Below, piece by piece: positions 11,805 through 30,602 of a stretch of 39,211 nucleotides of DNA. Location: contig JAUZOA010000047.1 of NCBI GenBank assembly GCA_030706685.1, forward strand, positions 1 through 39,211, read 5' to 3'. Position 1 is the first letter of the stretch. Every line of letters begins with the position of its first letter. The notes under the pieces were generated by a model. The model ran no database searches. It saw only the letters and a list, made by a program, of their open reading frames with translations, and was not told the DNA's origin. The translations under genes and the position numbers were made by a program. The DNA comes from Bacteroidota bacterium. Its GTDB lineage: Bacteria; Bacteroidota; Bacteroidia; Chitinophagales; Chitinophagaceae.

Positions 11805-12230
11805 ATGAAAAAGTTAATCATCTTGGCCGCCACCTTCTTTATCACTTCGCCAGTCATCTTTGCCCAGGGAAAAGCTGGTAAAAAAGATACCACCGTCCAT
11901 GCCTCCTACTACACTTGTCCCATGCACCCCGATGTGGTAAGCAGTAAGCCCGGGAAATGTCCTAAATGCGGAATGGACCTGAACCTTTCAACCAAAGAAC
12001 AAATGAAGCTGAACGTAACGAAGACATATGCCTGTCCCATACATGTGGATGTGACAAGCAACAAACCCGGGAAATGTCCCAAATGCGGGAAGATCATGAC
12101 GCTTTCACCCAAGGAAAAAATGAAAGCAGAAGCCGTGAAACTATATACCTGTTCCATGCACCCCGATGTAACCAGTGATAAACCCGGGAACTGTCCTAAA
12201 TGCGGGATGGCTTTAACAGAAAAAAAATAA
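11805..12230 (+). CDS. Periplasmic triple heavy-metal-binding-domain protein
   Basis: The protein is 141 residues with a signal peptide (MKKLIILAATFFITSPVIFAQ). The mature protein consists of three tandem HMBD repeats with a 38-39 residue period: about 37-59 (YTCPMHPDV...KCPKCGM), 76-98 (YACPIHVDV...KCPKCGK) and 114-136 (YTCSMHPDV...NCPKCGM). Each keeps Cys-x2-His and CPKC ligands. The middle copy has lost the Met of CPMH (CPIH), the following Pro, and the Met of CGM (CGK), so its metal site may differ. The domain normally occurs once at the N-terminus of CusB-type adaptors or P-type ATPases. A free-standing triple array looks like a periplasmic Cu/Ag buffer or shuttle, perhaps filling the place of CusF, which is absent here. 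That role is inference. Confidence 0.88.
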   Translation: MKKLIILAATFFITSPVIFAQGKAGKKDTTVHASYYTCPMHPDVVSSKPGKCPKCGMDLNLSTKEQMKLNVTKTYACPIHVDVTSNKPGKCPKCGKIMTLSPKEKMKAEAVKLYTCSMHPDVTSDKPGNCPKCGMALTEKK

Positions 12231-12277: not shown

Positions 12278-12907
12278 ATGAAAAAATATCGTTTCGCCGC
12301 CATAGCAATAGCCCTGGTAATCTTTAGCGCCTGCAACAGCCATGACAATAAATCACCGGAAAGTAAAGGGATGGATAATAAAAAGACAGATACAGCACAA
12401 CAAGCTGCCGCGACAAACGAAAAAGAGGTAAAAGTTATCACGGCTATTTACCCGCAGCTTGATGCCGGAGCGGCCGCTTCGATAAAAGCAATCGTTGATC
12501 ATTACCTGCATATAAAAAATGCATTGACCAGTGACAATGGAAGCGAAGCGGCCGGGGGCGGCAAAGCGATGGAAGAAGTCATCCGCAAAATGGATAAGTC
12601 TTTGTTTACCGTGGAGCAAAAGAAAATTTATGATAACATCGCGGAGGACTTGCAGGAACACGCCGAACATATTGGAAAGAATGGGGATAATGTAAAACAC
12701 CAGCGGGAACATTTTGCCATGATGAGTGATGATGTTTATGACCTCGTAAAAGCTTTTGGCGCCGGCCGGCCCATCTACCAGGACCATTGCCCCATGTACA
12801 ATGAAGGCAAGGGTGCTATATGGTTAAGTGAGAGCAAAGAAATCAAAAATCCTTATTACGGCAATAAGATGATCACCTGCGGCAGCGTGGAAGAAATGCT
12901 GCGATAA
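12278..12907 (+). CDS. DUF3347-type lipoprotein
   Basis: The protein is 209 residues with an N-terminal lipobox FSAC (Cys19), so it is exported and lipidated. After a low-complexity Lys/Asp/Gln linker the domain from about residue 60 reads IKAIVDHYLHIKNALTSDN...IRKMDKSLFTVEQKKIYDNIAEDLQEHAEHI...QREHFAMMSDDVYDLVKAFG, then YQDHCPMYNEGKGAIWLSESKEIKNPYYGNKMITCGSVEEML. That helical part plus the HCPMYN...GAIWLS...NPYYGNKMxxCG ending is the DUF3347 signature, a domain often attached to or next to CusB adaptors. The HCPM and MxxCG residues are reminiscent of the HMBD ligands and may bind Cu(I). It directly precedes the CusA-type pump gene by about 30 bases and is likely co-transcribed with it. Confidence 0.85.
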   Translation: MKKYRFAAIAIALVIFSACNSHDNKSPESKGMDNKKTDTAQQAAATNEKEVKVITAIYPQLDAGAAASIKAIVDHYLHIKNALTSDNGSEAAGGGKAMEEVIRKMDKSLFTVEQKKIYDNIAEDLQEHAEHIGKNGDNVKHQREHFAMMSDDVYDLVKAFGAGRPIYQDHCPMYNEGKGAIWLSESKEIKNPYYGNKMITCGSVEEMLR

Positions 12908-12940: not shown

Positions 12941-14227
12941 ATGATTCCAAAAATAATTTCCTGGTCATTAAAGAACCGTTACATCGTGCTCTTGCTCGCG
13001 GCAGGGTTATTTGCCTGGGGAATAATGAATGTGAAGAAAAACCCGATTGACGCTATTCCCGATCTCAGCGAAAACCAGGTGATCGTCTTTACCGAATGGA
13101 TGGGGCGTAGCCCGCAGATCATGGAGGACCAGGTTACTTATCCATTGGTCAGCAACCTGCAGGGAATTCCGAAGGTGAAAAACATAAGGGGCACATCTAT
13201 GTTCGGGATGAGTTTTGTCTATGTCATTTTTGACGATGATGCGGATATATACTGGGCAAGAACCCGTGTGCTGGAAAGATTGAATTATGCGCAACGTTTA
13301 TTGCCCAATGGGGTAACACCCGCACTGGGTCCCGACGGAACAGGCGTCGGCCACATATTTTGGTACACACTCGATACAAAGAACCTTGATCTTGGTGAGC
13401 AACGCGCATTACAGGATTGGTATATTAAACTGGCTTTGCAAACAGTGCCCGGCGTATCCGAAGTATCTTCTTTCGGGGGTTTTGAAAAACAATACCAGTT
13501 GATCGTTGATCCGGTAAAACTCCAATTCTATAATGTATCACTGATGGATGTGATGAATAAAGTAAGAGCCAATAACAATGATGTGGGGGGAAGAAAATTT
13601 GAAATGAGCGATATGGCTTATATCATCCGGGGACTTGGTTACATCAAAAACAAAGAAGATATAGAAAGCATTGGCGTCGCCAATTATAAAGGGATACCGG
13701 TAAGGATAAAAGATATAGGCACCGTGCAGATGGGCGGTGATCTGCGGCTTGGCATATTTGATGAGAATGGCGAAGGTGAAGTAGTCGGGGGTATCGTCGT
13801 AATGCGCTATGGGGAAAATGCCGACAAAGTGATCGATGCGGTAAAAGAAAAAATGAAAGACGTGGAAAAGGGCCTGCCGGAAGGAATAACGTTTAAAATA
13901 GCCTATGACAGGGGTGAACTGATCAAAGCGTCCGTCAGCAATATCAAGTCCAGGCTGATCGAAGAAATGGCCGTGGTAGCCCTTATCGTAATCATTTTTT
14001 TATTTCATTGGCGAAGCGCCCTGAGCATCATTATCCAGATACCTATTACTATCGCTGTCAGTTTTATCCTGTTGAATATGCTGGGTATTTCTTCCAATAT
14101 TATGTCGCTGACAGGTATCGCCCTGGCCATCGGGGTAATTGTTGATAATGGCATCATCATGAGCGAGAATGCTTATCGTCATTTATCCGATTGGCATAAG
14201 AACCGGTCACAAAACCTTAACTCATGA
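12941..14227 (+). CDS. cusA: CusA-type RND efflux pump, N-terminal half (split gene)
   Basis: The protein is 428 residues, covering TM1, the first porter domain and TM2-TM4 of a heavy-metal RND pump. Family landmarks are KKNPIDAIPDLSENQVIVFTEW, GRSPQIMEDQVTYPL, PDGTGVGHIFWYTL, SFGGFEKQYQLIVDP, and the TM4 signature GIALAIGVIVDNGIIMSENAYRHL with Asp402 and Glu409. That pattern is the Cu/Ag (CusA/SilA) class rather than the divalent-cation class. Reading stops at TGA 14225-14227 in the cytoplasmic loop after TM4, where a normal pump of about 1050-1080 residues would continue into TM5. The remainder is encoded by the next ORF, which starts at the overlapping ATG (ATGA). Either the two halves assemble, or this is a one-base frameshift; see findings. 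Confidence 0.9.
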   Translation: MIPKIISWSLKNRYIVLLLAAGLFAWGIMNVKKNPIDAIPDLSENQVIVFTEWMGRSPQIMEDQVTYPLVSNLQGIPKVKNIRGTSMFGMSFVYVIFDDDADIYWARTRVLERLNYAQRLLPNGVTPALGPDGTGVGHIFWYTLDTKNLDLGEQRALQDWYIKLALQTVPGVSEVSSFGGFEKQYQLIVDPVKLQFYNVSLMDVMNKVRANNNDVGGRKFEMSDMAYIIRGLGYIKNKEDIESIGVANYKGIPVRIKDIGTVQMGGDLRLGIFDENGEGEVVGGIVVMRYGENADKVIDAVKEKMKDVEKGLPEGITFKIAYDRGELIKASVSNIKSRLIEEMAVVALIVIIFLFHWRSALSIIIQIPITIAVSFILLNMLGISSNIMSLTGIALAIGVIVDNGIIMSENAYRHLSDWHKNRSQNLNS

Positions 14228-16164
14228 AAAAACTCTTCAAACGGGCAACCCGCAGGAATACTGATCACCGCATCCCGGAACCGGAAAGAATGCGATTGAT
14301 TGAAAAAGCCTGCCAGCAGGTATCCCGGGGAGTATTCTTTTCAACGGTTATTATTATTACATCTTTTCTCCCCGTGTTTTTATTGACAGGACAGGAAGGA
14401 AAGCTGTTTCATCCGCTGGCATTCACCAAAACTTTCATAATGATCGTGGATGCTTTGCTGGTGATAACATTGGCGCCGGTATTGATCTCCTTTTTTATGA
14501 AAGGAAAATTCCGCCCGGGAAAAGTTAACCCCGTCAATCGCTTGCTCGAAAGGATCTACGAACCGGTCATACGTGCGTGTATCAAATGGAGGAAGACAAC
14601 CCTGGCGATTAATATCATTGCCCTTGCAATAAGCATCCCTATGTTGATGAGCCTGGGAAGGGAATTCATGCCGCCGTTGGACGAAGGATCCATCCTTTTT
14701 ATGCCGGTTACCCTGCCCGATGTTTCCAACAGTGAAGTCAAAAGAATACTCCAGGTCCAGGACAAGATCATCAAATCAGTTCCCGAAGTAAAAAATGTAC
14801 TGGGAAAAGCCGGGAGGGCTAATACCGCTACGGATAATTCTCCTGTCAGTATGATTGAAACGATCATTTTACTCAAACCTCAAAGTGAATGGCGCAGGGG
14901 GATTTCCAAAAATGATATCATCAATGAACTGAATGCAAAACTCCAGATACCCGGCGTGACAAATGGCTGGACACAACCGATCATTAACAGGATCAACATG
15001 CTTTCTACAGGTATCCGTACCGATGTAGGATTAAAAGTGTACGGGCAAGACCTGGATACGATCTATGCCTTCGCACAAAAGATGAAAAAAGAGCTGGAAG
15101 GCATCAAGGGCATCAAAGACCTCTATGTAGAACCTATTACCGGTGGAAAATATATTGATATCATCGTGAAAAGAGATGAGATCAGCCGCTATGGATTGAG
15201 TGTTGACGAAGTGAACAACGTGGTGGAAATCGCCCTGGGTGGTATGCGTCTTACCACTACGGTGGAAGGAAGACAGCGGTTTTCTGTCAATGCAAGGTTT
15301 GGACAGGATTTCAGGAACAGCCTGGAAGCAATAAAGAGGTTGCAGGTGCAAACCACGCAATACGGCCCCATTCCGTTGGAAGCGGTTGCTGATATCAGGA
15401 TCACCGAAGGTCCGCCAATGATCAATTCAGAAAATGCAATGCTCCGGGGAACCGTTTTATTTAATGTAAGAGAAAGGGATCTTGGGAGCACCGTGAACGA
15501 AGCCAAAGAAAAATTGAATAATGTGATCACCAAGCTGCCCAAAGGATATTTTATGGAATGGAGCGGCCAATACGAAAACCTGATCAGGAGCGAACAGACA
15601 TTGAAGATGATCCTGCCGGTTGTACTGGTCATCATTTTTCTCTCGATGTATTTCGCTTTTCATTCGGCAAGAGAAGCTTTTCTTAGCCTTATTTCCATTC
15701 CATTTGCACTGATAGGAGGCGCTTTCATGATTTATTTCTGGGGAGTGAATTTATCAGTGGCTGTAGCGGTAGGTTTTATCGCTTTGTTTGGCCTTGCCGT
15801 GGAGACGGGAATTGTGATGGTGATCTATCTCAATGATGCAATGCAGCAACTCGTGGAGAAAAAAGGCAATTCCAAAGAAGCCATCACCCGCCAGGATTTG
15901 AAAGAATATGTAATCGCCGGGGCGGCAAAACGGTTAAGGCCTAAACTGATGACGGTAAGTGTTTCATTGTTTGCGTTAATACCCATTTTATGGAGTCATG
16001 GCGTGGGGAGTGATGTGATGAAACCCATTGTTTTGCCGATGGTAGGAGGGGTGCTCACTTCTGCTACACATATCCTGCTGGTCACACCGCTTATTTTTTT
16101 AATGGCTAAAGAATACGAGCTGAAAAAACAGGGAAAGATAGATGTGCTGGAGACAAAACACTAA
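14224..16164 (+). CDS. cusA: CusA-type RND efflux pump, C-terminal half (split gene)
   Basis: The protein is 646 residues. It begins with a basic leader (MKKLFKRATRRNTDHR) and then picks up the pump exactly where the N-terminal half leaves off: ERMRLIEKACQQVSRGVFFSTVIIITSFLPVFLLTGQEGKLFHPLA (TM5-TM6). The second porter domain follows with INMLSTGIRTDVGLKVYG, ALGGMRLTTTVEG and GPPMINSENAM. Met259, Met341 and Met399 lie in this domain and are candidates for the Met-based Cu/Ag path, though an alignment is needed to say which match known ligands. TM7-TM12 follow, with GFIALFGLAVETGIVMVIYL and a C-terminal GSDVMKPIVLPMVGGVL. Together the halves total 1074 residues, the normal CusA size. It drives proton-coupled export of Cu(I)/Ag(I) with the adjacent CusC- and CusB-type proteins. 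The start at 14224 overlaps the stop of the first half. Confidence 0.9.
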   Translation: MKKLFKRATRRNTDHRIPEPERMRLIEKACQQVSRGVFFSTVIIITSFLPVFLLTGQEGKLFHPLAFTKTFIMIVDALLVITLAPVLISFFMKGKFRPGKVNPVNRLLERIYEPVIRACIKWRKTTLAINIIALAISIPMLMSLGREFMPPLDEGSILFMPVTLPDVSNSEVKRILQVQDKIIKSVPEVKNVLGKAGRANTATDNSPVSMIETIILLKPQSEWRRGISKNDIINELNAKLQIPGVTNGWTQPIINRINMLSTGIRTDVGLKVYGQDLDTIYAFAQKMKKELEGIKGIKDLYVEPITGGKYIDIIVKRDEISRYGLSVDEVNNVVEIALGGMRLTTTVEGRQRFSVNARFGQDFRNSLEAIKRLQVQTTQYGPIPLEAVADIRITEGPPMINSENAMLRGTVLFNVRERDLGSTVNEAKEKLNNVITKLPKGYFMEWSGQYENLIRSEQTLKMILPVVLVIIFLSMYFAFHSAREAFLSLISIPFALIGGAFMIYFWGVNLSVAVAVGFIALFGLAVETGIVMVIYLNDAMQQLVEKKGNSKEAITRQDLKEYVIAGAAKRLRPKLMTVSVSLFALIPILWSHGVGSDVMKPIVLPMVGGVLTSATHILLVTPLIFLMAKEYELKKQGKIDVLETKH

Positions 16165-16173
16165 GTATTGCAA

Positions 16174-17442
16174 ATGACAAACCAGGTTTTTATGAAACGT
16201 ATCACGATCTTTTTTGGAATGATTTCAATCGTAGCAGCTTCTGATGGACAGGAGATACTTACCATCAGCCAGGTCAATACGGCCATTGAAAAAAACCATC
16301 CTGCGTTGAAAATGCTGGATGCCGAAGCCCGTTCGATGGATGAAGCTGCCAAAGGCGCCTATAGCTGGATGCCACCCGAACTGGGAGCAGGATTTTTCTT
16401 AACGCCTTATGATCCTGCCCGGTGGAAATCGATGAATGGACAACCGGGTATGGGTATGTTCGCGATCTCGGCACAGCAAATGTTTCCGGCCAGGAAGAAA
16501 CAGGAAGCCGAATATGCTTATATGAACACGCAGTCTTCTGTTGAAAAACAAAAAAAGGATGTAGTGATGAATGAATTGCTTTATACAGCGAGAAAGAATT
16601 ATTATGAATGGATCGTGCTGGAAAAAAAACGGAAAGTGCTGGAAGAGAATAATAAACTACTCCTGTTTATGATGCAGAGCGCGGAGATACGGTATAAGAA
16701 CGGCCTTGGAAAGATCAGCGCTTATTACAAAGCCAAAGCCGCACAGGCTACTATCGAAAACATGAAACTCATGCTCGAAAATGATATCACCCAGAAAAGA
16801 ATTGCCATCAATACAGTCATGAACAGCCCGGCGGACGGATTATTTTCAGTGGATACCAATTATGTATGGGTTGATTTTAATAAGGATATGTTTGACTCTG
16901 CTTCTTTAATGGCAAGACGAAGTGATATAAAAGTGATCAGCCGCAGCATTGAAGTCAATAACCTGCAACGCCAGTCGGAACTCGCAAAGCTGAAACCTGA
17001 ATTCGGCATTCGCTACGAGCATATGATGGCATGGGCTAAACAGCCCTGGCAATTTTCCTTAATGGGAATGGTGAAACTTCCTTTGGCTAAGTGGTCATCA
17101 AAAATGAACAAGGCAAAAGCGGAAAGCTTAGTCTGGGAAAATGAGGCATTGAAGAACCAGCAACAGATGATCGTTAATGAATCCATGGGTATGGCCCATT
17201 CAACTTTCGCGGAACTCGAATCAAAAAAGAAACAGATGAATTTGTATGAGACCCGGATTATTCCTGCATTAAGAAAGAATTTTCAGACTATGCAACTGGC
17301 GTATGAGCAGAACACCGAAGAATTGTTTGAGCTTTTTGATGCCTGGGAAGCATTGAACATGACGCAGATGGAATATTTCGACCAGTTGCAGAAAGCCCTG
17401 CAGATGCAGGCTGAGTTGATGAAAATACTTGAGATCAAATAA
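16174..17442 (+). CDS. cusC: CusC/TolC-type outer membrane efflux channel
   Basis: The protein is 422 residues from the ATG at 16174; an internal ATG at 16192 gives the neater signal peptide MKRITIFFGMISIVAASDGQ and is a real alternative. The rest has the OEP/TolC architecture: long amphipathic helices rich in Gln/Lys/Glu/Ala (EKKRKVLEENNKLLLFMMQSAEIRYKNGLGKISAYYKAKA) in two repeat halves, with short beta-strand segments between. This forms the trimeric outer membrane channel of the tripartite RND pump. An unusual content of Met (FFLTPYDPARWKSMNGQPGMGMFAISAQQMF) fits Cu/Ag traffic but may be chance. It lies between cusA and the first cusB, ending 7 bases before the latter's ATG. The channel assignment is firm; specificity comes from context. 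Confidence 0.88.
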   Translation: MTNQVFMKRITIFFGMISIVAASDGQEILTISQVNTAIEKNHPALKMLDAEARSMDEAAKGAYSWMPPELGAGFFLTPYDPARWKSMNGQPGMGMFAISAQQMFPARKKQEAEYAYMNTQSSVEKQKKDVVMNELLYTARKNYYEWIVLEKKRKVLEENNKLLLFMMQSAEIRYKNGLGKISAYYKAKAAQATIENMKLMLENDITQKRIAINTVMNSPADGLFSVDTNYVWVDFNKDMFDSASLMARRSDIKVISRSIEVNNLQRQSELAKLKPEFGIRYEHMMAWAKQPWQFSLMGMVKLPLAKWSSKMNKAKAESLVWENEALKNQQQMIVNESMGMAHSTFAELESKKKQMNLYETRIIPALRKNFQTMQLAYEQNTEELFELFDAWEALNMTQMEYFDQLQKALQMQAELMKILEIK

Positions 17443-17449
17443 AGAGGGT

Positions 17450-18712
17450 ATGAAAAATCTTTTTTATAAAGCCTTACCTGTTGTTCTGCTCCTGCTTGTG
17501 GCTGGCTGTGATGAAAAAAAGAAGGCAGGCAGTTCAATGCAGGAACCAACTGCGAAGCCTGTGATAAATAAAACAGGATATACTTGCCCGATGCATCCCC
17601 AGGTGCATAGTGATACGGCAGGGGCCTGCCCCATATGCGGAATGAATCTTGAGCCTGTTAAATCTCCCGGCAGGGAAAAGGAAGTTTCATTGAATACTTT
17701 ATTGAAGCCGGTAAACCAGCAGGTGGTCGCTTCTGTGCCGATGGTGCATATGGCAGCGCGGACGGAAGATATTGAAATGGACGCCTATGGATTTTTAACT
17801 TATGATACAAGATATACCGGCGCCGTATCAGCAAATGTCAATGGAAGGATCGAAAAACTGTATGTAAAATACCGTTACCAGGAAATAAAGCAGGGTCAGA
17901 AGATCATGGATATTTACAGTCCTGAATTAATGACTGCGCAGGAAAATCTTTTATTTGTTTTAAAAAATGACAGGGATAATGAGGTATTAATCGATGGCGC
18001 GAAGCAGAAATTATTGTTGCTCGGAATGAGTGAGGCGCAATTGCAACAGGTGATGCAAAGCGAAAGGGCTGTCAATGCCATATCGGTTTACAGCCGTTAT
18101 TCCGGGCATATTCATGAAAGCGATAATGCCGCCGGCGCAAATAATGAAAGCCTTGCTGCGAAAGATCTTTTAATGACGACGCAGGAACTGCCAGTCAAGG
18201 AAGGGATGTATGTACAAAAAGGGGAAAATGTTTTTTCTGTATATGATCCGGCCAAAGCATGGGCCGTGCTGAACATCTTTGCCGGCCAGGCAGCATTGAT
18301 TCATACAGGAGATAAAGTGCGTGTTATACCGGAAGTCGCCCCGCAAAAGGATTTCAGGGCTGTAATCAATTATATTGAACCATTTTACCGGGAAGGAAGT
18401 AAAACACTGACGGCAAGAGTATACTTTGATAATAGACAGTTACGGCTGCCAATAGGCAGCCAGGTAAAGGCCACAGTATTTGCCGGGCAACGCCTGGCTG
18501 ATTGGCTGCCCGAGGAAGCTGTGCTGTCACTTGGCCTCGATAAAATTGTGTTTGTAAGAAACGGGGAATCGTTCGTGGCAAGAAAAATTGAAACCGGTAT
18601 CGTGAATAAGCACCTGGTACAGGTAGTAGGAGGCCTGGATAAGAACGAAGCCGTGGTGGCCAACGCCCAATACCTTGTAGATAGTGAGAGTTTTATTAAA
18701 ACAAACAAGTAG
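17450..18712 (+). CDS. cusB: CusB-type periplasmic adaptor 1, with N-terminal HMBD
   Basis: The protein is 420 residues from the ATG at 17450, chosen because it opens directly into a lipoprotein signal (MKNLFYKALPVVLLLLVAGC, lipid Cys20) and follows AGAGG; a TTG at 17429 lies inside the previous gene. An HMBD with ligands Cys46, His49, Cys60 and Cys63 (YTCPMHPQV...ACPICGMNLEPV) precedes the adaptor core. In the core, NVNGRIEKLYVKYRYQEIKQGQKIMDIYSPELMTAQENLLFVL marks the barrel-sandwich and hairpin region, and the beta-barrel/MP domain follows to GLDKNEAVVANAQYLVDSES. It links the inner membrane pump with the outer membrane channel and, through Met/Cys ligands, can hand Cu/Ag to CusA. It is directly followed by a second, different adaptor 2 bases after its stop. 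Confidence 0.9.
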   Translation: MKNLFYKALPVVLLLLVAGCDEKKKAGSSMQEPTAKPVINKTGYTCPMHPQVHSDTAGACPICGMNLEPVKSPGREKEVSLNTLLKPVNQQVVASVPMVHMAARTEDIEMDAYGFLTYDTRYTGAVSANVNGRIEKLYVKYRYQEIKQGQKIMDIYSPELMTAQENLLFVLKNDRDNEVLIDGAKQKLLLLGMSEAQLQQVMQSERAVNAISVYSRYSGHIHESDNAAGANNESLAAKDLLMTTQELPVKEGMYVQKGENVFSVYDPAKAWAVLNIFAGQAALIHTGDKVRVIPEVAPQKDFRAVINYIEPFYREGSKTLTARVYFDNRQLRLPIGSQVKATVFAGQRLADWLPEEAVLSLGLDKIVFVRNGESFVARKIETGIVNKHLVQVVGGLDKNEAVVANAQYLVDSESFIKTNK

Positions 18713-18714
18713 TC

Positions 18715-19917
18715 ATGAAAAAATATTTGACGATAACCTTAGTGACGACGCTTGTTTTTGTATCCTGCAAAAACAAAAAGACGGCGATTGTAAACAATGA
18801 TGAGTACTATACCTGCAGCATGCATCCGCAGATCAAACAGGATAAGCCCGGTACCTGCCCCATCTGCCACATGGAATTGATACAGGTAAAGAAGACGCAG
18901 CAGTCGGAGGATGAAATAGTACTGAACGATGACCAGGTGAGCCTGGGTAATATTCAAACCGATACGATCCGTAATGGAACGATGGGTGACAAAGTTATTG
19001 TAACAGCCACTCTTGCTGCTGATGAGACAAAGGTTAACAGCGTAAATGCCAGGATCGCGGGCCGTATTGACAGGTTATATTTTAAAAACACCGGTGAATA
19101 TGTTCCGCATGGAGCTCATTTATATGACCTGTACAGTGAAGAGCTCAATAATGCCAAACAGGAATACATTGCCGCGCTGGAAAGACAGCAGACAATGGAT
19201 AATTCGATCATTGATTTCAATAAGTTGTTGCAAAGCGCCAAAACAAAATTATTATTATGGGGAATGAATGAAGCGCAGGTAAATGAACTGGCAAAGACAA
19301 AAAAATCATCGCCGCTGACAGCTTACTATAGTACAGCATCAGGCTTTATTACAGCATTACCGGTGATCGAGGGCCAGTATATAACGGAAGGCAGTACCGT
19401 AATAAAACTCGCTGACCTTTCTACCATCTGGGCGGAAGCGCAGGTCTATGCTTCGCAATTGCCGGAATTGGATGATAATGCCACCGTGATAGTTCAGTTA
19501 CCCGACCTGCCCGGCAAAGAATTCAGGGGGAAAGTGGAACTTGTCAACCCGGAAATAAATCCTGATACAAGAGTCAATCTTATCCGGGTGTCTATTTCTA
19601 ATCACGATAATATTTTCAAACCGGGAATGCCTGCTTATGTCATTTTTAAAAGCCCGGAAAGGAAGACTTTGTCATTACCGGTTGATGCCGTATTGAGAGA
19701 TGGAAAAATGGCCATGATCTGGGTGAAAAGCGGTGTCAATACTTTCAAAAGTAAAATGGTAGAAACGGGATTGGAAAACGGGAATCGTATTGAAATAAAA
19801 TCAGGACTGCAGGAGGGCGATATAGTTGTAACCAGCGGTGCTTACCTGCTGCAAAGCGAATATATTTTTAAAAAAGGGAATACTATAATGGCAGGGCACG
19901 ATATGAAAAATATGTAG
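18715..19917 (+). CDS. cusB: CusB-type periplasmic adaptor 2, with N-terminal HMBD
   Basis: The protein is 400 residues with a lipoprotein signal ending FVSC (Cys18). The HMBD has Cys34, His37, Cys48 and Cys51 (YTCSMHPQI...TCPICHMELI); the usual CGM is CHM here. The adaptor core includes ARIAGRIDRLYFKNTGEYVPHGAHLYDLYSEELNNAKQEYIAALER, LADLSTIWAEAQVYASQLPEL, and a C-terminal GLENGNRIEIKSGLQEGDIVVTSGAYLLQSEYIF. It is clearly homologous to the preceding adaptor but far from identical, so it is an old duplication or a recruited partner rather than a recent copy. Two adaptors for one pump recall TriAB-type systems. It could also serve the downstream RND pump, although that has its own adaptor. It is followed by the P-type ATPase gene 28 bases later. 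Confidence 0.9.
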   Translation: MKKYLTITLVTTLVFVSCKNKKTAIVNNDEYYTCSMHPQIKQDKPGTCPICHMELIQVKKTQQSEDEIVLNDDQVSLGNIQTDTIRNGTMGDKVIVTATLAADETKVNSVNARIAGRIDRLYFKNTGEYVPHGAHLYDLYSEELNNAKQEYIAALERQQTMDNSIIDFNKLLQSAKTKLLLWGMNEAQVNELAKTKKSSPLTAYYSTASGFITALPVIEGQYITEGSTVIKLADLSTIWAEAQVYASQLPELDDNATVIVQLPDLPGKEFRGKVELVNPEINPDTRVNLIRVSISNHDNIFKPGMPAYVIFKSPERKTLSLPVDAVLRDGKMAMIWVKSGVNTFKSKMVETGLENGNRIEIKSGLQEGDIVVTSGAYLLQSEYIFKKGNTIMAGHDMKNM

Positions 19918-19944: not shown

Positions 19945-21966
19945 ATGGAACATCAACATCACGCTAATCATCAACAAAGTGAGGCCTCACTGGATCATGC
20001 CGGACACTCCATAACAGCCGCGGGGCATGACCATCATGCTATGATGATCGCTGATTACAGGAAAAGGTTTTATGTGGTGCTGGTATTGACCATTCCTGTG
20101 ATGCTTTTATCCGAAATGATACAGCATTGGCTGGACATTCATATCCGTTTTCGCAGCTCAGAATATGTATTGCTCTTTCTTTCTTCTGTTGTGTTTTTTT
20201 ATGGAGGCTGGCCTTTTCTAAAGGGCTGGTCGGGGGAAATGAAGGCGAAAAGCCCCGGCATGATGACATTGATAGGCTTTGCCATCACGGTGGCATATAC
20301 CTATAGCGTAGCAACAGTACTCGGCCTGAAGGGCATGGATTTTTTCTGGGAACTGGCCACACTTATCCTGATCATGCTATTGGGTCATTGGATAGAAATG
20401 AGATCGGTTGCAGGGGCATCAAAGGAGCTTGAACTGCTGGTGCAACTGATGCCCGATGATGCCCACCTGGTACATGGCGATCATATTATGGACGTCAAAA
20501 CAATAAGCCTGAGGGAAAATAATATTATCCTGGTTAAACCCGGCGAGAAGATAGCAGCCGATGGCCTTATCACTGAAGGAGAAACTTATCTCAATGAATC
20601 CATGCTCACCGGCGAATCTAAACCCGTAAAGAAAAATACCGGCGACAAAGTAATTGCAGGTTCTATTAATGGCAACGGCGCTGTTAAAGTATCCGTATTG
20701 CATGGTTCAAAAGATTCCTACCTCTCTCAGGTAATAAAACTGGTGCAGGATGCGCAGCAATCAAAATCAAAAACTCAATTACTGGCAGATAAAGCAGCAA
20801 AGTGGCTTACCATCATTGCTATCATAGCCGGTATCGCTACATTTTTAACCTGGTATTTATCAGGCAGGGACATTGCATTTTCTATTGAAAGAATGGTGAC
20901 GGTTATAGTTATTTGCTGCCCTCATGCACTGGGGCTTGCCGTTCCGTTGGTGGTGGCTAAATCAACAGCTTTATCCGCGCAACATGGGTTGCTGATTAAA
21001 AACAGGACAGCATTTGAAAATTCAAGAAAAGTAACAACCATTGTATTTGATAAAACGGGTACACTTACTATCGGAAAGTTTGAGGTATCCAAAATCGTTT
21101 CATTAAAAAACAGCGTTCCTGAAAACGAAATCATACGGCTGGCAGCCGCCTTAGAGCAAAAGTCAGAACACCCTATTGCAACAGGTATTCTTCAAAAGGC
21201 GAAAAACTTATCTGTGACTATCCCATCAACAGAAAATTTCAATGCCATCACAGGGCAGGGGGTAGAAGCTATAGTAGAAGGTAAAAAGATATGGGTGGTT
21301 AGTCCCGGCTATTTAAAAGAAAATAATATCGCTCTACCTGCTGGCTTTACACCCAATGCAACGGAAACGATTGTATTTGTAATTAGTAATAACGAACTGG
21401 TCGGATATATTGCGTTATCGGATGAGATACGGCCCGAATCAGCCGCCGCCATCAGAACTTTAAAGCAAAACAAAATCCAATCAATGTTGGTTACCGGCGA
21501 TAACAATAAAGTGGCCAAAAGTGTAAGCGAAACCTTAGGTATCGATAGTTTTATTGCCGAAGTATTACCGCACCAGAAATTAGAGAAGATAAAAGAGTTA
21601 CAGCGTAAAGGTGAATTTGTTGCCATGACAGGAGACGGTGTAAATGATGCACCTGCATTGGCACAGGCCGATGTAGGCATTGCTGTAGGATCGGGAAGTG
21701 ATATCGCCGCTGAAACGGCGGGAATAGTTTTGGTCAACAGTAATCCAAAAGATATCGTAAGCTTACTTCTTTTCGGAAAAGCTACATACAGGAAAATGAT
21801 CCAGAACCTGGCCTGGGCGACAGGATATAATATTGTTGCCCTGCCGCTGGCCGCAGGTGTTTTATATAAAACGGGCATTCTTTTGAGCCCGGCTGCCGGC
21901 GCCGTATTGATGACAGTCAGCACCATAGTGGTAGCGATTAATGCAGGTTTTTTACGAATTAAATAG
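19945..21966 (+). CDS. copB: CPH-type (P1B-3, CopB-like) copper-translocating ATPase
   Basis: The protein is 673 residues. It has no HMA domain; instead the first 32 residues hold nine His (MEHQHHANHQ...DHAGHSITAAGHDHHAM). Visible ATPase motifs are TGES (222-225, actuator), CPH (325-327, in VICCPHALGLAVPLVVAKSTALS, the membrane metal site), DKTGT (369-373, phosphorylated Asp369), the SEHPIATGI nucleotide-site HP motif, and MTGDGVNDAPALAQADVGIAVGSGSD (hinge). CPH defines the P1B-3 class, in which characterised members export Cu(II)/Ag(I) and carry His-rich N-termini. It removes copper from the cytosol to the periplasm, where the Cus-type pump can take over. The ATG at 19945 is preceded by AGGA. 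It is the last gene of the copper block before a 170-base gap. Confidence 0.95.
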   Translation: MEHQHHANHQQSEASLDHAGHSITAAGHDHHAMMIADYRKRFYVVLVLTIPVMLLSEMIQHWLDIHIRFRSSEYVLLFLSSVVFFYGGWPFLKGWSGEMKAKSPGMMTLIGFAITVAYTYSVATVLGLKGMDFFWELATLILIMLLGHWIEMRSVAGASKELELLVQLMPDDAHLVHGDHIMDVKTISLRENNIILVKPGEKIAADGLITEGETYLNESMLTGESKPVKKNTGDKVIAGSINGNGAVKVSVLHGSKDSYLSQVIKLVQDAQQSKSKTQLLADKAAKWLTIIAIIAGIATFLTWYLSGRDIAFSIERMVTVIVICCPHALGLAVPLVVAKSTALSAQHGLLIKNRTAFENSRKVTTIVFDKTGTLTIGKFEVSKIVSLKNSVPENEIIRLAAALEQKSEHPIATGILQKAKNLSVTIPSTENFNAITGQGVEAIVEGKKIWVVSPGYLKENNIALPAGFTPNATETIVFVISNNELVGYIALSDEIRPESAAAIRTLKQNKIQSMLVTGDNNKVAKSVSETLGIDSFIAEVLPHQKLEKIKELQRKGEFVAMTGDGVNDAPALAQADVGIAVGSGSDIAAETAGIVLVNSNPKDIVSLLLFGKATYRKMIQNLAWATGYNIVALPLAAGVLYKTGILLSPAAGAVLMTVSTIVVAINAGFLRIK

Positions 21967-27341: not shown

Positions 27342-27425
27342 TGAAACAAACCTGGTAGCAGCAAGACAGAAAAAAATTAATTGAATGCTTCAACCCGCGG
27401 CAATCTAAAGCAGGTACAAAACCAA

Positions 27426-30400
27426 ATGAAGAAGTTTATTAAAAATATTATCCATTTTTCACTGCGGCACCGCTATTTTGTATTTTTCATGACCGGCGTA
27501 TTGGTGGTGCTGGGAGTATGGGCGTATAAAGAGACACCGATCGAAACTTTCCCGGATATCACGAATACGCAAATCATTATCATTGCCCAATGGCCGGGAC
27601 GAAGCGCAGAAGAAGTGGAGAAGTTTGTTACGATTCCATTGGAAACAGTATTGAATTCTGTGCAGAAAAAATCCAACCTCCGTACTACTTCTGCATTCGG
27701 GCTTTGTTATATACGCATCATATTCGATGATGGCGTGGATGATGCATTCGCCCGGCAACAGGTGCAAAGCAGGATCGGCGGCGCCGATCTCCCGGATGGT
27801 ATAAAGCCCGACATTCAGCCTCCTTATGGTCCTACCGGTGAAATTTACCGGTACACATTGAAAAGTAAAATCTATTCGATCCGTGATCTGACTACGTTGC
27901 AGGACTGGGTTTTGGATCGCCAGTTCAAATCAGTTCCGGGTGTAGCAGATGTAAACAGCTTTGGCGGCGAAGAAAAAGTGTATGAAGTGAGTGTGAACCC
28001 CGATCTTCTTACAAAATACAACCTCTCCTCACTCGATATATATAATGCGATCAGTAAAAGCAATGTCAACGTCGGGGGTGATGTCATTGAAAGAAACGGT
28101 CAATCCTACCTCGTAAGAGGCATCGGCCTGCTGAGCAGTATCAGTGACATCCAGAATATCATGATCAATAAGGTGAATGGGGTTCCGTTGCTGGTGAAGA
28201 ATGTGGCGGAAGTTATTGAAGCCGGGAAACCCCGGCTGGGATGGGTTACGCGGGATAAAGGGGGCAACCGTGAAGATGATGTAATTGAGGGCATTGTTGT
28301 TATGCGGAAAGGAGAGAACCCGGGTGAAGTATTAAAAGGCGTGGAAGAAAAAGTGAAAGAACTCAATACTTCCATTTTGCCCAAGGGAGTGAAGGTAGAT
28401 ACATTTTATGACCGTACTGAGTTGATGGATTACGCGCAGGATACGGTCATTCATAATTTGATTGAAGGCATCATCCTGGTTACACTGATCGTTATGCTGT
28501 TCATGGCGGATTGGCGCACGACCGTTACCGTGAGTATCATCATTCCCCTGTCCCTGCTCTTTGCCTTTATATGTATGCGGCTAAAAGGAATGACGGCCAA
28601 TTTGCTGAGTATGGGCGCGGTCGATTTCGGGATCATCATTGATGGCGCCGTGGTGATGGTAGAAGGATTATTTGTAGCCCTTGATCACAAGGCAAAGGAA
28701 GTGGGCATGGAAAAATTCAACAAGCTGGCCAAACTCGGCCTGTTCAAAAGCACCGGTACCGAAATGGGCAAAGCGATTTTCTTCAGTAAAGTGATCATTC
28801 TCACCTGCCTGGTTCCCATTTTTGCTTTTCAGAAAGTAGAGGGTAAAATGTTTTCGCCGCTGGCTTATACACTCGGTTTTGCATTATTGGGCGCCTTGTT
28901 ATTTACATTAACCCTGGTACCCGCTCTTTCCAGTATATTATTGAAGAAAAATGTAAGGGAAAAGCATAATATCCTGGTATCATTTTTTGAAAGAGGAGTT
29001 GGGAAGCTCCTGAACTGGGTTTACCGTCACCAGAAAAAGAGTATTCTTATTGCAGTGGTCATTATGGCCATGACTTTTTTCTCTTCTAAATTCCTGGGCA
29101 CTGAATTTTTGCCTGAATTGAATGAAGGAGCCTTATGGGTGGAAGCCGAATTGCCCATGAGCGTTTCCTTGTCGGAAGCCAAATCGGTGAGCGATGAAAT
29201 GGTCAGCATTTTATCAAAATTTCCTGAAGTGCAAAAAACGCTCTCCCAGATTGGCAGAACTAATGACGGCACGGATCCAAAAGGTTTCTTCAATGTACAG
29301 ATACAGGTCGATCTCTTTCCCAAGAAAAAATGGAAGCGGCATATCAGCGAAGAGAAACTGATCAGTGAAATGGATGAACAATTGAATAAGATGCCTGGCC
29401 TGGTATTAAATTATTCCCAGCCGATACGGGATAACGTGGAAGAAGCGGTCGCCGGTGTAAATGCCGCCCTCGCGGTTAAGATATTCGGTTCGGATTTTAA
29501 TACATTGGACAGCCTGGCCAAGGAAGTGGAAGGGCAGCTTAAAACGGTGAGAGGCATCGAAGATCTTGGCATTGAAAGAAACCTTGGTCAGCCCGAGTTC
29601 CGCATTCAGTTGGATCAGCAAAAAATGGCGCTATATGGCATTACTACTGCTGATGCCAACGCTGTCATAGAAATGGCTATCGGGGGCAAAGAAGCAACAG
29701 AGCTGTATGAAGGCGAACGAAAGTTTGACATAAGGATCAGGTACCAAAAAGAATACCGTGCTACGCAGGACGCAATAGAACAACTGATGGTGCCCACCAA
29801 CGATGGCGCTAAAGTACCCCTGAAGGAAATAGCGAATATTCAGACATTAACAGGCCCTGCCTTTATCTACCGGGATAACAATGCAAGATATATTGCCGTT
29901 AAGTTTTCCGTGCGGGGAAGAGATCTTGGCGGCACCATCAAGGAAGGCCAGGAAAAAGTAAAAACAGCTATTCATTTACCCGACGGTTATCGAACTACCT
30001 GGAATGGCGAATTTGAAAACCAGCAACGTGCCAGCAAAACATTAGGTCAGGTGGTGCCTATTTGTTTATTGCTCATTTTCCTGATACTGTTCATTACGTA
30101 CGGCAATGTAAAAGACGCGATCCTTACATTGATGAATGTGCCATTTGCGTTAATTGGTGGAATATTAGCGCTCCATCTTACCGGTTTGAATTTTAGTATC
30201 TCTGCAGGAATTGGTTTTATCGCCTTATTCGGGGTTTGTATTCAGAACGGGGTGATATTAATATCTGTATTTAGAAAAAATCTCGATGCAGGCATGCACC
30301 TGGAGCAAGCGATCAAGTATGGAGTGGCTTCGAGAGTAAGACCGGTAGTCATGACGGCATTAATGGCAATGATCGGGCTGATGCCCGCCGCTATCTCAAA

Positions 30401-30602
30401 AGGAATCGGCAGCGAATCACAGAAACCGCTTGCCATCGTGGTAATAGGGGGACTGGTAACGGCTACCATACTTACATTATTGATACTGCCGGTGATTTAT
30501 TCGCTTGTATTTAAGCTGGTGCACAACCGGCAAAACAGGAGATTATTGCGGAAGGCAGGCCTGGTAAGTAAATTGCCCGGCGAGAATGACAGTAATCAAT
30601 AA
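27426..30602 (+). CDS. czcA: CzcA-type heavy-metal RND efflux pump
   Basis: The protein is 1058 residues from the ATG at 27426; a TTG at 27381 would prepend 15 polar residues before the natural MKKFIKNIIHFSLRHRYFVFF start, so I reject it. The full pump is present: KETPIETFPDITNTQIIIIAQWPGRSAEEVEKFVTIPLE, the first porter domain, then TM4 with MGAVDFGIIIDGAVVMVEGLF. In TM4, Asp400, Asp406 and Glu413 form the D-x5-D-x6-E proton/cation triad known from CzcA-class exporters of Zn(II), Co(II), Cd(II) or Ni(II). TM5-TM6, the second porter domain and TM7-TM12 follow, ending FKLVHNRQNRRLLRK. This is clearly different from the split CusA-type pump, whose TM4 reads AIGVIVDNGIIMSEN. It is the last gene of the island and runs into a convergent gene. 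Confidence 0.94.
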   Translation: MKKFIKNIIHFSLRHRYFVFFMTGVLVVLGVWAYKETPIETFPDITNTQIIIIAQWPGRSAEEVEKFVTIPLETVLNSVQKKSNLRTTSAFGLCYIRIIFDDGVDDAFARQQVQSRIGGADLPDGIKPDIQPPYGPTGEIYRYTLKSKIYSIRDLTTLQDWVLDRQFKSVPGVADVNSFGGEEKVYEVSVNPDLLTKYNLSSLDIYNAISKSNVNVGGDVIERNGQSYLVRGIGLLSSISDIQNIMINKVNGVPLLVKNVAEVIEAGKPRLGWVTRDKGGNREDDVIEGIVVMRKGENPGEVLKGVEEKVKELNTSILPKGVKVDTFYDRTELMDYAQDTVIHNLIEGIILVTLIVMLFMADWRTTVTVSIIIPLSLLFAFICMRLKGMTANLLSMGAVDFGIIIDGAVVMVEGLFVALDHKAKEVGMEKFNKLAKLGLFKSTGTEMGKAIFFSKVIILTCLVPIFAFQKVEGKMFSPLAYTLGFALLGALLFTLTLVPALSSILLKKNVREKHNILVSFFERGVGKLLNWVYRHQKKSILIAVVIMAMTFFSSKFLGTEFLPELNEGALWVEAELPMSVSLSEAKSVSDEMVSILSKFPEVQKTLSQIGRTNDGTDPKGFFNVQIQVDLFPKKKWKRHISEEKLISEMDEQLNKMPGLVLNYSQPIRDNVEEAVAGVNAALAVKIFGSDFNTLDSLAKEVEGQLKTVRGIEDLGIERNLGQPEFRIQLDQQKMALYGITTADANAVIEMAIGGKEATELYEGERKFDIRIRYQKEYRATQDAIEQLMVPTNDGAKVPLKEIANIQTLTGPAFIYRDNNARYIAVKFSVRGRDLGGTIKEGQEKVKTAIHLPDGYRTTWNGEFENQQRASKTLGQVVPICLLLIFLILFITYGNVKDAILTLMNVPFALIGGILALHLTGLNFSISAGIGFIALFGVCIQNGVILISVFRKNLDAGMHLEQAIKYGVASRVRPVVMTALMAMIGLMPAAISKGIGSESQKPLAIVVIGGLVTATILTLLILPVIYSLVFKLVHNRQNRRLLRKAGLVSKLPGENDSNQ

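Follow-up and report, generated by a model that had tools for sequence, protein, structure and literature searches.

Does a heavy-metal efflux pump whose gene is divided between two overlapping reading frames work as two polypeptides, or is the division a mistake in the sequence? This question is raised by a CusA-type pump in the window, i.e. the whole stretch of 39,211 nucleotides that was analysed here (contig C169). The window carries a copper/heavy-metal operon and belongs to a draft genome of 5.74 Mb in 226 contigs. An earlier note on this DNA had described the pump as two ORFs of 428 and 646 residues joined by the bases ATGA. It proposed an RND protomer of two polypeptides and held a frameshift or an assembly error to be equally likely. 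Based on sequence comparison we consider it very probable that the locus encodes a working Cu(I)/Ag(I) pump of the CusA family (HME-RND) whose protomer consists of two polypeptides.

The divided pump and its operon

The two ORFs are located on the forward strand at positions 12941-14227 (428 aa, here referred to as the N half) and 14224-16164 (646 aa, the C half). Both start with ATG and neither contains a second in-frame stop. Bases 14224-14227 read ATGA, the stop codon of the N half (14225-14227) overlapping the start codon of the C half. Coordinates, overlap and the absence of other stops were verified as originally described.

Comparison with the E. coli CusA chain assigned residues 8-430 to the N half (E 1.8e-127) and residues 431-1042 to the C half (E 2.4e-161). 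The halves covered positions 1-433 and 428-1043 of TIGR00914 (1051 positions) as well as 1-419 and 421-1020 of PF00873 (1021 positions), and together they match the full-length profiles of CusA/CzcA HME-RND transporters. With TIGR00914 the N half scored 475 bits and the C half 606 bits, each below the whole-protein cut-off of 701 since each is a part of the protein. CusA is covered end-to-end and without a gap, and the pump is therefore complete and cut once, in the TM4-TM5 loop. A break in the loop after TM4 was what the earlier note had proposed, and the split falls in the same loop in 75 of 77 related loci. CusA/CzcA transporters have one polypeptide per protomer; the two conserved ORFs are a variant feature of the pump described here.

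The predicted membrane helices agree with this division, four being assigned to the N half and eight to the C half, with TM1-TM12 numbered by analogy with CusA. The AlphaFold models of the isolated halves were of moderate confidence (mean pLDDT 67) and were used for helix counts only. Superposition on CusA was poor for the N half (TM 0.40, rmsd 13) and better for the C half (TM 0.68). According to ORF, profiles, CusA alignment and model, the N-terminal polypeptide would contain TM1, the first periplasmic region and TM2-TM4, and its residue 402 is the equivalent of D405. The C-terminal polypeptide would contain a basic leader, TM5-TM12 and the second periplasmic region, together with the equivalents of the methionine triad, E625, E939, K984 and T987. 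The leader MKKLFKRATRRNTDHR ahead of ERMRLIEKACQQ was found as stated before; it comprises codons 1-21 of the C half (14224-14286, forward strand) and has a net charge of +5 over its first 20 residues.

All further genes of the operon considered here are on the forward strand as well. A protein of three heavy-metal-binding (HMBD) repeats (11805-12230, Pfam) and a DUF3347 protein (12278-12907, Pfam) precede the pump, the latter directly upstream. The HMBD-repeat gene contains a 117-nt direct repeat. Downstream follow an outer membrane factor (16168-17442; ORF with Pfam OEP, start codon assigned mechanically), two CusB-like periplasmic adaptors (17429-18712 and 18715-19917, profile matches, the second 28% identical to the first) and a copper-translocating P-type ATPase (19945-21966, profile match to TIGR01511). 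Adaptors and outer membrane factor are thus present in the same operon as the pump, as is typical of CusCBA systems. This arrangement is widely shared: in the 59 distinct split loci that leave 5 kb of room, the outer membrane factor follows the pump in 56, and the factor and two adaptors follow in this order in 54. The two unlike adaptors in tandem possibly form a heteromeric adaptor ring.

A second heavy-metal (HME) pump is present in the window at 27381-30602. It is a single ORF and carries E, N, E and Q at the positions of the triad and E625. The remaining RND matches in the source genome are single frames of 1011 aa or longer (1024-1195 aa).

Distribution and conservation of the split

The earlier note had suggested asking whether the loop is covered by one ORF or two in CusA homologues of relatives. 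In a scan of named genomes, both halves were present in 77 of the best 80 of 566 relatives; 75 of the 77 were split into two ORFs and two were continuous, a fraction that is not a phylum-wide rate, the relatives having been picked by similarity to the window. The remaining three loci begin no more than 165 nt from the end of a contig. Among the hosts in which split copies occur are Chitinophagaceae, Sphingobacterium, Pedobacter, Mucilaginibacter, Flavobacterium, Chryseobacterium, Epilithonimonas and Cyclobacteriaceae, and among the matches listed several genomes have two or three such copies. At E 1e-150 the pump was not found in any of six other genomes of the genus.

Two censuses were made. 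Across the phylum (392 genomes, three best candidates scored per genome), the 31 best places, at 56-100% identity, were distributed over 26 genomes and all had C-half frames of 643-728 aa; as these places, too, were picked by similarity to the window, they give no phylum-wide rate. The weaker matches among those listed were frames of 1031 aa or more with the exception of G328, G286 and G350:C77. In G328 and G286 the pump is cut by contig ends. In G350:C77 (L163, 1088-2932) a C-terminal pump part of 42% identity was observed, and the preceding 1087 nt contain no N half. Within the order (298 genomes, N half as query, five best candidates scored per genome), 80 places reached 59% identity or above, of which 74 were split and six continuous. 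Two of the 82 places listed were left out, namely G838, a single frame at 51% identity, and G837, which has only 271 residues.

Furthermore, we analysed 14 plasmid records, all deposited as complete and drawn from 30 listed among 3222. Twelve of them, all from Bacteroidota, carry the split pump, one from Pelobacter carries a continuous one, and in L098 each half has a frame of its own, the C half being interrupted by another frame break. One of the twelve (L103) has a further break in the N half. Two adjacent CDS named "efflux RND transporter permease subunit" are annotated over the halves in eight records, and four records have no CDS over the pump, possibly because the annotators took it for a pseudogene. 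At the low end of the loci L097 and L104, two Adhaeribacter plasmids carry in addition a CusA/CzcA gene of 4395 nt (about 1464 aa), which is longer than a normal pump and perhaps represents a fusion with another component.

For the counts of junctions, residues and tree rows, 11 duplicate loci were removed to obtain a set of distinct loci, and L035, L072, L098, L125 and L128 were left out, the script having found no adjacent N half. In L125 and L128 the N half sits at the opposite end of the operon.

Purifying selection acts on both halves, with dN/dS of 0.010-0.037 for either of them in ten close pairs. The proteins of the window share 82-91% identity with those of ten near relatives, at pN of 0.06-0.13 and pS of 0.71-0.83.

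In CusA, according to the excerpts of PMC8092243, M573, M623, M672 and E625 bind copper and D405, E939 and K984 form the proton relay. The methionine triad together with E625 was found in all 116 distinct split loci, which is the CusA-like signature of Cu(I)/Ag(I) pumps. The substrate would accordingly be Cu(I)/Ag(I), in view of the triad and the neighbouring copper ATPase. The window has all three residues of the proton relay. D405, E939 and T987 are each present in 115/116 loci, the exception being a gap; M1009 is likewise found in 115/116 and K984 in 112/116, with a different residue in two. The transmembrane methionine pairs 410-501, 403-486 and 391-1009 are not all retained. Only 391-1009 is complete in the window, where isoleucine occupies the positions of 403 and 501, so that two of the three pairs are half lost. 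Among 19 fused rows, methionine is present in five at 403 and in nine at 501. As D405 is located on the N half and E939, K984 and T987 on the C half, neither chain should be able to carry the proton relay alone.

The junction and competing explanations

The exact ATGA overlap is found in only 23 of the 114 junctions measured (14224-14227 in the window, forward strand). These counts do not include L103, with its extra frame break, and L084, for which no start was found. In distinct loci of the usual gene order, counted from the first base of the stop codon of the N half, the C-half ATG is positioned at -20 to +15 nt in 106/114 cases and at +4 to +15 nt in 71/114; as start we used the in-frame ATG closest to that stop codon, a rule which favours short distances. 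In 82 of the 114 loci there is a single candidate in-frame ATG before the conserved ER motif. Five loci have the C-half start at least 100 nt past the N-half stop. The relation between the frames of the two halves varies (49, 45 and 20 of 114 loci), and all three stop codons are used to end the N half. Extra DNA between the halves was observed in L022 (5731-5925, palindrome-rich), L087 (5591-5690) and L109 (1275-1473). On visual inspection, about 60 nt of related sequence just ahead of the C-half start are common to L087 and L109.

Some loci are rearranged altogether. In G198 and G214, members of two other families of the phylum, the order is C half, outer membrane factor, two adaptors and N half (L177, G198:C67:62000-71500; L178, G214:C7:25000-34000). 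The N half is a complete ORF of 421-422 aa in both. In G361 (C5; L122/L162) a 231-aa ORF with a Pfam methyltransferase domain is located between the two halves, which are intact (N half of 464 aa, C half of 652 aa).

The start of the C half looks real. Excerpts of PMC6847099 name adenines at -3, -6, -12 and -13 as determinants of initiation in Flavobacterium johnsoniae, of a phylum without Shine-Dalgarno (SD) sequences. In 106 loci the 20 nt upstream of the C-half ATG are A-rich. The fraction of A at -13 to -10 was 0.76, compared with 0.28 and 0.22 at internal Met codons of the two halves; it was 0.61 at -6 and 0.53 at -3. The true start of the N half, which served as positive control (101 loci), had a weaker signal (0.47 at -13 to -10). 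Equivalent places moved 9-27 nt upstream gave 0.32-0.50, and part of the A excess may be due to an N-half tail rich in Lys, Asn and Gln. An SD-like motif precedes the C-half start in 3/106 loci. The window has AAAA at -13 to -10 (14211-14214, forward strand), but T at -6 and C at -3. To judge from the context in relatives, the C-half ATG appears to be a genuine start, and from the overlap a coupled translation at ATGA is plausible in the source genome. Leaders of at least 10 residues are present in 100 of 115 C halves; 63 of these have a net charge of +3 or more and 88 contain Phe or Trp. The fused outgroup loops, among those listed, have no counterpart of the basic leader.

How likely is it, then, that the split is not what it seems? 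A mistake in sequencing or assembly, or a frameshift that recently turned this copy into a pseudogene, would be in keeping with a draft contig, one of 226, and with the four plasmid records in which no CDS covers the pump, as if it had been judged broken. Against this, the identical split recurs in 75/77 related loci, in 74/80 places of the order census and in 12 plasmids deposited as complete. The frames and spacings of the halves differ among loci, the halves are reversed in two genomes, and selection against amino acid change is seen on both sides of the junction (dN/dS of 0.010-0.037 in the close pairs; pN far below pS with the relatives of the window). By the earlier note's own test, in which relatives proved overwhelmingly split and not continuous, the equal weight once given to this explanation did not hold, and we now regard it as very improbable. 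Still less probable is that a single polypeptide is produced after all, through readthrough of the stop or a programmed frameshift where the halves meet. The frames do overlap in the window, and a run of A starts with the final base of the stop codon of the N half. However, where the C half leads and is separated from the N half by three genes (G198, G214), or where a whole ORF intervenes (G361), neither process can give one chain. Variable frame relations, the use of all three stop codons and a C-half start context typical of a true start argue against it as well.

The halves could also be separate proteins that act on their own or with other RND proteins and are not partners in a protomer. 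They are separate genes, several genomes hold two or three split copies, and the G350 locus has a C-terminal part of 42% identity but no N half in the preceding 1087 nt. Yet the proton relay is divided between the halves (D405 versus E939 and K984) and conserved, the N half precedes the C half in 77/80 loci while the other three lie within 165 nt of a contig end, and even the loci of reversed order keep both halves in one operon-like row. We therefore find this explanation, too, very hard to credit. The protomer of two polypeptides is supported by the conserved split, by selection and by the reversed gene order. Comparative data strongly support the view that the split is an old and conserved trait of this bacterium and many relatives rather than a sequencing mistake.

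For a pump of two polypeptides the following mechanism can be proposed. Both chains would be translated from one operon, and in the source genome the 4-nt overlap probably couples the start of the C half to the termination of the N half. The 428-residue chain would provide TM1-TM4 and the first periplasmic region, the 646-residue chain TM5-TM12 and the second. Each chain would insert separately into the inner membrane, with the basic leader of the C half remaining cytoplasmic. In the membrane the chains would associate into one CusA-like protomer (4+8 TM helices), and three protomers would dock with the products of neighbouring genes, the outer membrane factor and the two CusB-like adaptors. 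It is a speculative and rather unlikely extension that the fission is itself maintained for a function, with the basic and often aromatic leader gained by the C half serving targeting or assembly, the halves being movable within the operon and, in genomes with two or three split copies, the halves of different copies cross-pairing into mixed pumps, so that few genes would yield them.

Evolutionary history and comparison with known systems

Five changes of the split or fused state were required on a quick tree of 133 C-half rows. In careful mixture-model trees of 43 and 51 hand-chosen rows, a branch with support 100/99 separated the fused outgroup from the continuous relatives and all chosen split rows. 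The 51-row tree, with three more continuous copies, required seven changes, and well-supported branches force at least six of them. With the fused outgroup as root, the trees fit, by parsimony, one ancient fission followed by five or six re-fusions. The re-fused copy L146 keeps leader-like residues in its loop. The placement of L129 is unsure, as it has a long branch and no resolution in the quick tree. L103 was left out of the large tree. L081, which was labelled fused solely through a contig end, was left out of the trees and is counted among the 19 fused rows mentioned above.

A pump cut through its membrane domain, off the repeat border, offers a natural test of membrane insertion, of partner finding and of coupling to proton transport, the last because the proton relay itself spans the cut. 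The several re-fusions and the reversed gene order provide matched natural comparisons. For annotation the split pump is a warning, since its genes can resemble frameshifted pseudogenes and yet are conserved.

Among the papers listed from the open-licence PMC literature, a scope in which subscription papers are mostly not included, none on a split RND efflux pump was seen. The excerpts of PMC8092243, PMC6847099, PMC11213822, PMC6260751, PMC6281302 and PMC4026382 describe no split pump.

E. coli CusA is by sequence of the same family as the pump over the whole length and shares with it the methionine triad, E625, D405/E939/K984/T987, K482 and the pair M391-M1009. It differs in being one chain where two are found here, and the window lacks Met at the positions of 403 and 501. 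The closest outgroup found consists of fused CusA-like pumps of the same phylum and of Pelobacter (L130-L133, L099). Each of them is one frame of about 1049 aa; they share 53-54% identity with the C half and have the same methionine triad.

As a rule, an RND efflux pump is one chain whose domains are intertwined. MdtBC is an RND pump with two full-length permeases, and TriABC has two adaptors (TriAB), a feature which the operon of the split pump shares. To our knowledge, neither has a protomer divided into two chains. The nearest precedent we know of is the naturally divided SecD/SecF, a member of the RND superfamily with 12 TM helices that some bacteria distribute between two polypeptides and others combine in one fused chain. 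SecDF is no metal pump, and its division is 6+6 at the border of the internal repeat, whereas the pump described here is cut 4+8, inside the first repeat.
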